From Bordetella genomosp. 9 (lineage in GTDB: Bacteria; Pseudomonadota; Gammaproteobacteria; Burkholderiales; Burkholderiaceae_B): a DNA stretch of 64,000 nt. The position numbers and the translations under genes are program-made. Each line of letters opens with the position of its first letter. Position 1 is the first letter of the stretch. This document shows positions 30,623 to 32,847 of this stretch, one piece after another. The notes beneath the pieces were generated by a model. The model was not told the DNA's origin, searched no databases, and saw nothing but the letters and a program-made list of their open reading frames with translations. The DNA is taken from contig NZ_NEVJ01000003.1 in the NCBI RefSeq assembly GCF_002261425.1, positions 3,642,772-3,706,771 on the forward strand, in the 5' to 3' direction.

Positions 30623-30649
30623 TTAGCACTCTCCTTTTCAGAGTGCTAA
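30623..30649. promoter_or_regulatory. CIRCE element (HrcA operator) upstream of rpoH
   Basis: The sequence is TTAGCACTC-N9-GAGTGCTAA, an exact match to the CIRCE consensus with the canonical 9-nt spacer (TCCTTTTCA). It ends 48 nt before the rpoH start codon. HrcA binding here would repress rpoH until chaperonin titration releases it. hrcA itself is not in the window. Confidence 0.92.
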
Positions 30650-30697: not shown

Positions 30698-31585
30698 ATG
30701 AAACAACAGAATTCTTCGTTGGCCGTACCCGCCAACGCCCTTACGCTGGCCATCGCCAATCCGGGCGCGCTGGGGACGATCGACGCATATATCTCCGCCG
30801 TGAACCGCCTGCCGGTGCTGACGGCGGATCAGGAAGGTGCGCTCGGCCGCCGCCTGCGCGACGACGGCGATCTGGACGCCGCGCGCGAGCTGGTGCTGTC
30901 GCACCTGCGCCTGGTCGTGTCCATCGCGCGCCAGTACCTGGGATACGGTCTGCCGCATGCGGACCTGATCCAGGAAGGCAACGTCGGACTCATGAAGGCC
31001 GTCAAGCGCTTCGATCCCGAGCGCGGCGTCCGGCTGGTCTCGTTCGCCGTGCACTGGATCAAGGCGGAAATCCATGAGTACATCGTGCGCAACTGGCGCC
31101 TGGTGAAGGTCGCCACCACCAAGGCGCAACGCAAGCTGTTCTTCAATCTGCGCAGCATGCGTCCGGACGGCAAGACGCTGGATACCGAGCAGGTGGACGA
31201 GATCGCCCGTCAGCTCAACGTCCGGCCGGAAGACGTCAGCGAGATGGAAGTCCGCCTGTCGGGTCGCGATATGGCCCTGGAAGCCCAGGACGACGACGAT
31301 GAAAGCTTCGCGCCGATCGCCTACCTGTCCGACGAAGGCCGCCAGGAACCGACGCGCGTGCTGGAGCGCAAGGCGCACGACGAGCTGCAGAGCACGGGCC
31401 TGAATGACGCGCTGGAAGCGCTGGACCCCCGCTCGCGCCACATCGTGCAGGCGCGCTGGCTGCAGGACGACGGCGGCGCCACGCTGCACGAGCTGGCGCA
31501 GGAATACGGCATTTCCGCCGAGCGCGTCCGCCAGATCGAGGCCGCCGCCCTGAAGAAGATGCGCGGCAGCCTGCAAGCTGCCTGA
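30698..31585 (+). CDS. rpoH: RNA polymerase heat-shock sigma factor (sigma-32)
   Basis: Group 3 sigma factor that directs polymerase to heat-shock promoters. The 295-residue product has region 2 (HLRLVVSIARQYLGYGLPHADLIQEGNVGLMKAVKRFDPERGVRLVSFAVHWIKAEI, shortened here to its key parts) and the RpoH box QRKLFFNLR near residue 144. Region 4 is TLHELAQEYGISAERVRQIEAAALKKMR. The ATG at 30698 follows a GGAG at suitable distance; an upstream in-frame start would overlap the leader. A perfect CIRCE site lies upstream and an intrinsic terminator downstream. Confidence 0.96.
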   Translation: MKQQNSSLAVPANALTLAIANPGALGTIDAYISAVNRLPVLTADQEGALGRRLRDDGDLDAARELVLSHLRLVVSIARQYLGYGLPHADLIQEGNVGLMKAVKRFDPERGVRLVSFAVHWIKAEIHEYIVRNWRLVKVATTKAQRKLFFNLRSMRPDGKTLDTEQVDEIARQLNVRPEDVSEMEVRLSGRDMALEAQDDDDESFAPIAYLSDEGRQEPTRVLERKAHDELQSTGLNDALEALDPRSRHIVQARWLQDDGGATLHELAQEYGISAERVRQIEAAALKKMRGSLQAA

Positions 31586-31601
31586 TGTAAGACGCTGGAT
31601 C

Positions 31602-31633
31602 ATGGCGCGCTGGTGACAGCGCGCCATTCTTTT
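31602..31633 (+). terminator. Intrinsic terminator after rpoH
   Basis: An 11-bp perfect stem (ATGGCGCGCTG and its complement) with a GTGA loop, followed by TCTTTT, starts 17 nt after the rpoH stop. Confidence 0.85.
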
Positions 31634-31717
31634 ACGGCTCAGAAGTTACATTTAGATTCATGTCGCCGCGGGAAATCCCGAATGCGGGCGAAACTTTCTC
31701 ATGTCGCCCCAGCCTAA

Positions 31718-31726
31718 CCCCATGTA
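31718..31726 (+). promoter_or_regulatory. Sigma-32-like -10 box for the candidate small RNA
   Basis: CCCCATGTA matches the sigma-32 -10 consensus CCCCATNTA at every defined position. The expected -35 (CTTGAA) is not well matched 13-17 nt upstream, where CTCATG is the closest, so the promoter assignment is tentative. Confidence 0.4.
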
Positions 31727-31730
31727 GACC

Positions 31731-31846
31731 ACGTGCCTGGAGCTTTCCAGGTTTGTAGTCTTCTCACCTGTCTCGGCTTCTCCTCTTTCCCCTCCCCTAT
31801 GAGACAGGTGTTTAGCGGGGCACCCCACGTGGTGCCCCGTTTTTTA
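31731..31846 (+). ncRNA. Candidate small regulatory RNA downstream of rpoH
   Basis: A non-coding stretch of about 116 nt with three stem-loops in order. The first is CCTGGA/TCCAGG with a 4-nt loop at 31736-31751. The second is a 10-bp perfect stem CACCTGTCTC/GAGACAGGTG (31765-31774 with 31801-31810) closing a 26-nt pyrimidine-rich loop. The third is a GC-rich terminator with a T run. The loop contains CTCCTCT and CCCCTCCCC, complementary to Shine-Dalgarno sequences, as in CcsR/cuckoo-type sRNAs of alphaproteobacteria. A CCCCATGTA box just upstream suggests heat-shock control. The 5' end is inferred, and no homologue is claimed. Confidence 0.5.
31816..31846 (+). terminator. Strong intrinsic terminator of the candidate small RNA
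   Basis: A 9-bp perfect stem CGGGGCACC/GGTGCCCCG with a 6-nt loop is followed by seven T residues. There is no plus-strand gene between it and rpoH, which already has its own terminator, so this one must serve another transcript. Confidence 0.85.
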
Positions 31847-31875
31847 TTGGCCCCGCGTCATTCGCCCCACTTGCG

Positions 31876-32847
31876 TCAGGCGCCGCCCACGATGTCGGCC
31901 GCCGTGGCCGCCGTGTCGGGGGCCGCCTCGCAGGGCACCGGCACAGACGCTTCCTCGGGCTCGTTCCATTCCTGCAGCAGCGCGCGCCAGAGCGCGGCGT
32001 CCAGCCGCCGCACGCCGGTGGCGATCGAGCCGTCGGGATATAGCTTCATCCAGCGGTAGCCGGGCGGCTGCGGATCCAGCCTGTGCCGGCCATCGCGGAT
32101 GGTGAACTGGAAGCAGGTGGACGGCGTGGCCAGCATCCGCACGTTGCCGCGCCGGCGATCGAAGTCCTGGTGGACGTGGCCCCACAGCAGGATGCGGGCA
32201 TTGCCCCAGCGCGTCAGGTGGCGGAACAGCTCGGCGGCGTTGTCCAGCATCATGGAATCGCGCCAATCGGCGCTGATCTGCACCGCGTTGTGATGCATGG
32301 CGACCAGCGCCGGGCGGCCCTGTGCCGTGCCCAGAGCATGGTCGAGCAGTTCGAACTGATCCCTTTCCAGATGGCCGGCGTTGGAACCGGCGACATGCGA
32401 GTCCAGCATGACGACGCGCCAGGGGCCGATGTCGCTGACCGGTTCGGTCCAGGCGCCCAAAGCGCGCTTGAGCGCGGCCGGCGTGTCATGGTTGCCGGCC
32501 AGGCAGCGCACCGGCATGCCCAGCGGGGCGACCGCTTCGGCGAAACGGTGATAGGACATCTCGCTGCCGTCCTGCGACAGGTCGCCGGTCGCCAGCAGCA
32601 GGTCGGCGTCGCCATGGTCGCGCCGGATGGCCGCGACCACCGCCCGCAGGCTGGCGTCGGTGTTGACGCCCAGCATGACCGCGGGCGCGGCATAGAGATG
32701 GGGATCGGTGAGCTGCACCACCAGGGTGGGCGCGCCATCGGCGCGTTCCGTGCCGGCGGCCTGGGCGGCCTTGGCGGCTGTGGGGGCCTTCGGGGCTCTG
32801 GCGGCGCGCGCCGGCGACGCGGCGGAAAGCTTGGGAATAGTGTGCAA
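31876..32847 (-). CDS. CpdA-like metallophosphoesterase
   Basis: Calcineurin-like phosphoesterase related to 3',5'-cyclic-AMP phosphodiesterase CpdA. The 323-residue product has the dimetal motifs QLTDPHLY, LLATGDLSQDGS, LAGNHDTP, MHHNAV and WGHVHQDF in the correct order. An Ala/Lys/Pro-rich segment of about 40 residues precedes the domain and the C-terminus is acidic; neither is conserved in the family. It is divergent from the antiporter gene, whose C-terminal domain is cNMP-like. The substrate could be cAMP or another phosphodiester. Confidence 0.85.
   Translation of the reverse strand: MHTIPKLSAASPARAARAPKAPTAAKAAQAAGTERADGAPTLVVQLTDPHLYAAPAVMLGVNTDASLRAVVAAIRRDHGDADLLLATGDLSQDGSEMSYHRFAEAVAPLGMPVRCLAGNHDTPAALKRALGAWTEPVSDIGPWRVVMLDSHVAGSNAGHLERDQFELLDHALGTAQGRPALVAMHHNAVQISADWRDSMMLDNAAELFRHLTRWGNARILLWGHVHQDFDRRRGNVRMLATPSTCFQFTIRDGRHRLDPQPPGYRWMKLYPDGSIATGVRRLDAALWRALLQEWNEPEEASVPVPCEAAPDTAATAADIVGGA

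Follow-up and report, generated by a model that had tools for sequence, protein, structure and literature searches.

The gene rpoH, which encodes sigma-32, is followed in the window (the whole stretch of 64,000 nt that was analysed) by two terminator hairpins, at 31602-31627 and 31814-31841, so that both of the strong terminators claimed in an initial annotation were found. Between rpoH and the second hairpin lies the gene of a small RNA (sRNA) with a predicted promoter of its own, and the features of the locus are collected in Table 1. A metallophosphoesterase gene converges on it from the other side (31876-32847, minus strand), its end falling outside the sRNA element, and, as read from the window sequence, the stem of the sRNA terminator has no T run behind it in the minus-strand direction. 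The length of the RNA is estimated at 122 nt in the window, with a median of 120 nt and a range of 91-177 nt in 73 loci.

Table 1. Coordinates of the features in and around the sRNA gene (positions of the window)
Feature	Position	Strand	Basis or remark
Predicted sigma-E promoter of rpoH, GAACTT-N16-TCGAA	30596..30622	+	Same layout as the sRNA promoter
CIRCE element (presumed), TTAGCACTC-N9-GAGTGCTAA, perfect	30623..30649	+	Directly 3' of the predicted sigma-E -10 of rpoH
rpoH (sigma-32)	30698..31585	+	Pfam Sigma70_r2 and Sigma70_r4; gene directly 5' of the sRNA
rpoH terminator hairpin	31602..31627	+	Between rpoH and the sRNA promoter
Predicted sigma-E (ECF02-type) promoter of the sRNA	31691..31717	+	AAC-N18-NCNAA conservation
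sRNA, about 122 nt	31724..31845	+	Ends inferred from promoter and T run
sRNA 5' hairpin, sequence variable	31726..31761	+	Fold prediction; helix 1 of the 13-sequence alignment
Central hairpin, 10 Watson-Crick pairs and one G-U	31765..31810	+	Fold, covariation
C/U-rich seed loop GCUUCUCCUCUUUCCCCUCCCCUA, complementary to Shine-Dalgarno-type sequences	31776..31799	+	Motif conservation
Rho-independent terminator of the sRNA, with U tail	31814..31845	+	Terminator prediction, helix conservation

The region 31718-31846 (129 nt) has a folding energy of -56.5 kcal/mol, compared with -32.25 +/- 3.38 kcal/mol for shuffled sequences (z = -7.17), and none of 200 shuffles was equally stable. Three hairpins are predicted in it, namely a 5' hairpin, a central one with a C/U loop and the terminator, in agreement with the three-hairpin fold described at first. 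The arms of the central stem (31765-31775 and 31800-31810) form ten Watson-Crick pairs and a closing G-U pair; the 10-bp stem of the first description is thus present, while the loop measures 24 nt in the predicted fold (31776-31799) and not 26. Both loop motifs pointed out earlier were located, CTCCTCT at 31780-31786 and CCCCTCCCC at 31789-31797. A scan of the window with Rfam 15 gave no match at gathering score, and a permissive scan of 31580-31900 gave eight weak matches at E <= 10, none of them to a family named after cuckoo or CcsR RNAs. The best of the eight, sau-6072, falls on the rpoH terminator hairpin (E 0.0034; 25.8 bits, cut-off 50) and is regarded as chance, and sX13 (E 2.0) lies far under its cut-off.

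Conservation and covariation of the RNA

With the rpoH protein as query, 80 named loci were obtained, the best 80 among the matches listed, and the same element, recognised by its exact core motif, stands 3' of rpoH in 12 of them. By title these are Achromobacter, Bordetella, Parapusillimonas, Allopusillimonas, Yanghanlia, Advenella (three), Pusillimonas, Candidimonas and two entries called 'Alcaligenaceae bacterium', all of which we take to belong to the Alcaligenaceae. The core motif is absent from L007 and L064 (Taylorella), both Alcaligenaceae by title. The 12 loci and the window together form a set of 13 sequences, which were aligned with MAFFT. In this alignment each of the 10 central-stem pairs is retained in 13/13 sequences (100% of cells), six of the pairs with changes on both sides, whereas the 5' hairpin (helix 1) is paired in 81.1% of cells, with two-sided changes in 6/6 pairs, and the terminator (helix 3) in 96.1%. 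Over the three helices 94.3% of cells are paired, compared with 80.6% in shuffles and at most 46.1% in slid controls.

A covariance model, R1, was built from the 13 sequences, and its score of 93.1 bits for the window (31763-31847) is that of a member of its own training set. R1 matches 177 of the 268 genomes in the family of Bordetella genomosp. 4 (E <= 0.01), a named Bordetella that itself carries the element (L002). In an order-level sample of 399 genomes there are 11 matches at E <= 1e-4, all of them in family genomes, and among 15 genomes reached via the named loci five family genomes are matched at E <= 5e-14. Plasmids and phages gave no match at E <= 1e-5. Weak matches outside the family (E <= 1) are led by Aromatoleum (G008, L086; 4.5e-5), the others ranging from 0.004 to 0.7; L086 has the seed of another sRNA, S17, on the matched strand (letters compared by eye) and is therefore taken as an S17 homologue. 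Loosely matching motif rows (L013, and L125 on the minus strand) were taken as chance. R1 finds the RNA family-wide, which makes a new Rfam entry possible.

The loci examined from the family matches and the rpoH search amount to 84 instances, reduced to 76 distinct ones by removal of identical copies. In 73/76 the same-strand gene directly 5' of the sRNA is rpoH (the exceptions are L102, L143 and L145), and the loop is nearly invariant, CTTCTCCTC being present in 71/76 and CCCCTCCC in 73/76. Covariation was also followed in 70 distinct rows from 75 loci, in R1's own alignment, which leans to the model (the 13-sequence test being that of MAFFT): 96.6% of cells are paired compared with 86.1% in shuffles, with 99.6% for the central stem and 93.5% for the terminator helix, and two-sided changes occur in 9/10 pairs of either helix, or 18/20 in all. 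Among relatives, then, the stem is conserved with compensatory changes around a loop that hardly varies, and the sRNA gene that had been proposed directly 3' of rpoH, with an anti-Shine-Dalgarno-like C/U loop, is borne out by these changes and by its family-wide conservation. The element is more than chance, as its folding z-score, its compensatory changes and its conservation beside rpoH testify; the sRNA gene is real and conserved, and its loop is of the anti-Shine-Dalgarno kind.

The window holds one R1 match, and more than one is found in 6/177 genomes. At L145 two copies of the sRNA lie about 3.7 kb apart, and in front of each copy the apparent end of a transposase gene (judged by eye) replaces the -35 and the spacer, so that the promoter is cut away. 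A second match is also present within genomes G045, G047, G056, G176 and G187.

Promoters and sigma factors

Upstream of the sRNA the window contains a -35 AAACTT (31691-31696), a 16-nt spacer and a -10 CCTAA (31713-31717), with a predicted start near 31724, some 7 nt upstream of the start proposed earlier. The pattern AAC-N18-NCNAA, with a spacer of exactly 16 nt and at most 150 nt from the loop, is found in 74 of the 76 distinct loci; the two others are L174 and L145, the latter with an upstream region that looks like an inserted element. A spacer of 16 occurs 77 times, compared with 1 to 14 times for each other spacing from 10 to 22. AAC and C-N-AA being part of the search pattern itself, it is the remaining positions that are telling; their information content was computed on 54 sequences kept below 75% identity over 40 nt by the removal of relatives. 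Conserved beyond the pattern are the G before AAC (1.2 bits), the TT after it (1.5 and 1.0), the G before the -10 (1.1) and the T inside the -10 (1.4), while the first spacer base carries 0.7 bits and the 14 inner spacer positions 0.0-0.4 bits.

From work in E. coli, the sigma-E consensus consists of GAACTT, a 16-nt spacer and a TCNAA-like -10. The spacing, AACTT and G-N-C-N-A-A of the sRNA promoter fit sigma-E best by this consensus, the layout being that of sigma-E promoters, and the -10, mostly [AC]CTAA (69/74), deviates from the TCNAA-like form. The CCCCATGTA box, on which sigma-32 control had been proposed, is indeed present at 31718-31726, just 3' of this better-supported promoter. Across the family the proposal fails: CCCCATNT occurs at most 80 nt from the loop in one of the 76 distinct loci, the window, compared with 74/76 for the ECF/sigma-E type promoter, and a suitably spaced CTTG-type -35 in 0/76. 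Judged from these promoter sequences, control of the sRNA is most likely exerted by sigma-E and not by sigma-32.

A promoter of the same layout is predicted in front of rpoH, followed by an element (30623-30649) which we take, by its pattern, to be CIRCE. Among the 160-nt rpoH upstream regions (n = 73), AACT[TA]-N16-NCNAA is present in 29 and an exact CIRCE in 65, and the -10 of the fitting promoters is mostly TCGAA (20/29); with 29/73 regions fitting, conservation of the site is lower at rpoH than at the sRNA. For B. bronchiseptica, transcription from the rpoH (fam) promoter by SigE has been shown in vitro (PMC3490749), and sigma-E plausibly drives both rpoH and the sRNA via separate promoters. 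As a perfect CIRCE abuts the predicted -10, transcription of rpoH from its sigma-E promoter could be blocked by HrcA.

RpoE is found above the family cut-off, once per genome, in 23/24 genomes, the exception being Taylorella, and further, weaker ECF matches exist in 22 of these 23. In Taylorella G012 (L064) the RpoE match, this sRNA and the Rfam family RF02278 are all absent. At E <= 1e-60, RpoE is present in 242/268 family genomes, that is in 172/177 sRNA carriers (five being without a match) compared with 70/91 other genomes (Fisher p 3e-7), as obtained by comparing match lists, with six RpoE-less genomes inferred from numbering gaps. This association is confounded, many of the RpoE-less genomes being smaller than 1 Mb, and genome reduction may explain it. 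Within 250 nt 5' of rpoE no sigma-E site was found in the 20 analysable loci of 23, no start having been found for the other three.

A likely counterpart in Bordetella pertussis and the proposed role of the sRNA

In B. pertussis, an RNA of about 120 nt, CT_521, was published in 2025 from the interval between bp3747 and rpoH; it has a C/T-rich seed directly 5' of its terminator, and seed and terminator are conserved in bordetellae (PMC12235514). Its level drops in an hfq mutant and rises when RNase E or RNase III is mutated, and the evidence for it includes Northern blots and RIL-seq, in which it is a hub with 22 chimera partners whose targets have a Shine-Dalgarno-like motif; together with one other RNA it accounts for over 73% of all sRNA-mRNA chimeras in the Hfq interactome (PMC12235514). 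Deletion of the CT_521 promoter is followed by an increase of plrR and bp0913 mRNA, a decrease of tcfA and an apparent increase of ptxA and fhaB mRNA, with pertussis toxin and FHA protein unchanged (PMC12235514). Per figure legend, mapping of the RNA used a TEX-treated library, and the published 12-bp deletion of the -10 reaches from -13 to -2 relative to the mapped 5' end (PMC12235514); with a start at 31724, the same deletion would cover CCTAA in the window.

The features of CT_521 that were looked for in the window, namely adjacency to rpoH, a length of about 120 nt and a C/T-rich seed directly before the terminator, were all found there, whereas CT_521 differs in having, in the accessible part of its report, no published sigma-factor assignment or covariation. 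The window sRNA is likely the orthologue of CT_521, on the basis of position, size, features and the Bordetella locus L002. The initial annotation had considered the pair unreported, a claim that cannot stand beside the match in position, size and C/T seed (PMC12235514). As in B. pertussis, the window sRNA would depend on Hfq and pair with Shine-Dalgarno-like motifs. No report of sigma-E dependence of CT_521 was found in the accessible open-access literature; the rseA deletion described concerns CT_532, on which it had no effect, and the authors describe the stress control of both main hub RNAs as yet to be determined (PMC12235514). A conserved sigma-E promoter would answer how CT_521 is controlled under stress.

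As for targets, the median predicted pairing energy is -8.4 kcal/mol for porin starts, -7.5 for controls and -10.8 for OmpA-domain genes, and values of -14 kcal/mol or lower are reached by 5/30 porins, 2/30 OmpA-domain genes and 7/65 controls, several of the starts (for example L245, L282 and L283) looking wrong. Porin starts thus show no enrichment over control starts, in a test made weak by the automatic choice of starts. In 10/10 genomes a single ompA orthologue contains GAGGAGAA, the complement of the seed UUCUCCUC, in a conserved start region (-13.2 to -13.4 kcal/mol), and the same word is present in 4/350 crude start windows (first ATG, longest frame per strand and locus, ompA included). 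For the time being ompA may be considered a lead, since a single orthologous gene is involved and its ribosome-binding site is strong. The ompA leaders of the ten genomes (L255-L264) are very similar over some 30-40 nt, beyond the needs of a ribosome-binding site, and in B. pertussis the predicted binding site of CT_532 lies immediately 5' of the ompA leader region (PMC12235514).

Upon the structure, covariation, seed conservation, synteny and promoter layout observed in the present analysis a reading can be built to which we assign a probability of about 0.83, that of an autonomous sRNA gene, likely orthologous to CT_521, with its own sigma-E promoter behind rpoH and an Hfq-dependent anti-Shine-Dalgarno muting under envelope stress. 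Sigma-E would be the factor, envelope stress the main signal and repression of translation the main outcome. Envelope stress would free sigma-E, the polymerase of which would make rpoH, from its own sigma-E promoter under CIRCE, and, separately, the RNA of about 122 nt. Hfq would then bind this RNA, the central hairpin would offer its C/U loop, with the two seeds UUCUCCUC and CCCCUCCCC, to strong Shine-Dalgarno regions, and seed pairing would hinder ribosomes or destabilise the mRNA, with turnover involving both RNase E and RNase III. Against sigma-E count the [AC]CTAA of the sRNA as opposed to the TCGAA of rpoH, the 29/73 rpoH regions that fit, the absence of a site 5' of rpoE in the loci analysed and the five sRNA carriers without an RpoE match; against the reading also count the porin starts, no better as targets than controls, and, in the CT_521 promoter mutant, the fall, and not rise, of tcfA and the unchanged FHA and pertussis toxin protein (PMC12235514). 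We also lean, with less assurance, towards a family-wide module in which sigma-E turns on rpoH and a broad-acting anti-Shine-Dalgarno sRNA directly behind it. Such a module would be the repressing RNA arm of the Alcaligenaceae envelope stress response. The Alcaligenaceae would gain a sigma-E-driven repressing sRNA, and through the sigma-E promoter a single locus would tie envelope stress to heat shock and to translational repression.

The same sRNA could have its promoter read by another or by several ECF sigma factors, with a signal other than classical envelope stress, a scheme that overlaps with the sigma-E reading except for the sigma factor and that we judge unlikely. The difference between the sRNA -10 ([AC]CTAA) and that of rpoH (TCGAA), the extra ECF matches in 22/23 RpoE-bearing genomes and the 5/177 carriers without an RpoE match would agree with it, but spacing, AACTT and G-N-C-N-A-A suit sigma-E best (by the consensus from E. 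coli), and RpoE alone is above the family cut-off, once per genome, in 23/24 genomes. It is quite improbable that the RNA is mainly a processed rpoH 3' UTR, released by RNase E, with its own promoter playing a minor part. The distance from the rpoH stop to the -35 can be as short as 33 nt (median 104, n = 72). An intervening terminator was detected in 27/72 loci only, by a strict rule that misses some, so that in many relatives the sRNA could also be supplied by read-through. Nevertheless, a strong rpoH terminator intervenes in the window, the promoter is conserved in 74/76 loci, and CT_521 was mapped in the TEX-treated library and is up, not down, in the RNase E mutant (PMC12235514).

A heat-shock sRNA of cuckoo/CcsR type, started from CCCCATGTA by sigma-32 and paired with rpoH, would account for the box at 31718-31726, the C/U loop and the adjoining rpoH; it becomes very improbable in view of CCCCATNT in 1/76 loci and a CTTG-type -35 in 0/76, compared with an ECF-type site in 74/76, and of the Rfam results, with matches at gathering score absent and no cuckoo/CcsR family at E <= 10. 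Finally, the notion that there is no sRNA gene here, and that the C/U stretch stands by chance in a terminator region, is hardly credible given 18/20 pairs with two-sided changes, a nearly invariant loop, and Northern and RIL-seq data for the B. pertussis counterpart (PMC12235514).

Relation to other regulatory RNAs

The proposed kinship with the cuckoo/CcsR RNAs of alphaproteobacteria survives as a common mode of action and is lost in the neighbour (rpoH, not a DUF1127 gene), the promoter class, the single copy in place of several in a row and the absence of an Rfam match at gathering score. The likeness lies in a C/U-rich loop of anti-Shine-Dalgarno type and in the link to stress, whereas the sRNA described here differs in having rpoH as neighbour, a single copy in the window and a promoter of sigma-E type. 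CcsR1-4 share their transcript with a DUF1127 gene, under an RpoHI/RpoHII promoter (PMC10253847).

Within the bordetellae themselves the comparison is with S17/CT_433, which resembles bdhR1 of the Rfam family RF02278 (Betaproteobacteria_toxic_sRNA) (PMC11722255). S17/bdhR1 is alike in being Hfq-dependent and in having C/U-rich seeds against ribosome-binding sites with the terminator directly behind; it differs in being encoded separately, with a glycosyltransferase gene and coq7 on either side, and in its sigma-A promoter (in B. pertussis), its processing by RNase E to 67 nt and its distribution over several betaproteobacterial groups (PMC11722255). RF02278 is found at one locus per genome in 23/24 genomes, elsewhere than this sRNA, and is neither among the eight Rfam matches of 31580-31900 (E <= 10) nor matched in the window at gathering score; the longest word common to its RNA seed and the present loop is TCTCCTC (compared in L218). 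There are thus genomes with two separate RNAs of anti-Shine-Dalgarno type, one with a sigma-A promoter (in B. pertussis) and one with a promoter of sigma-E type.

In enterobacteria, MicA, RybB and MicL are sigma-E-dependent sRNAs. We know of no sequence relation between them and the sRNA of this locus, which differs from them in having its seed in an internal hairpin loop and in that porin targets are unsupported. The likeness consists in the putative sigma-E promoter, the Hfq partner and the probable repression of translation, and, if the family-wide module is true, this sRNA would be an independent counterpart of MicA, RybB and MicL, with ompA possibly a conserved target.
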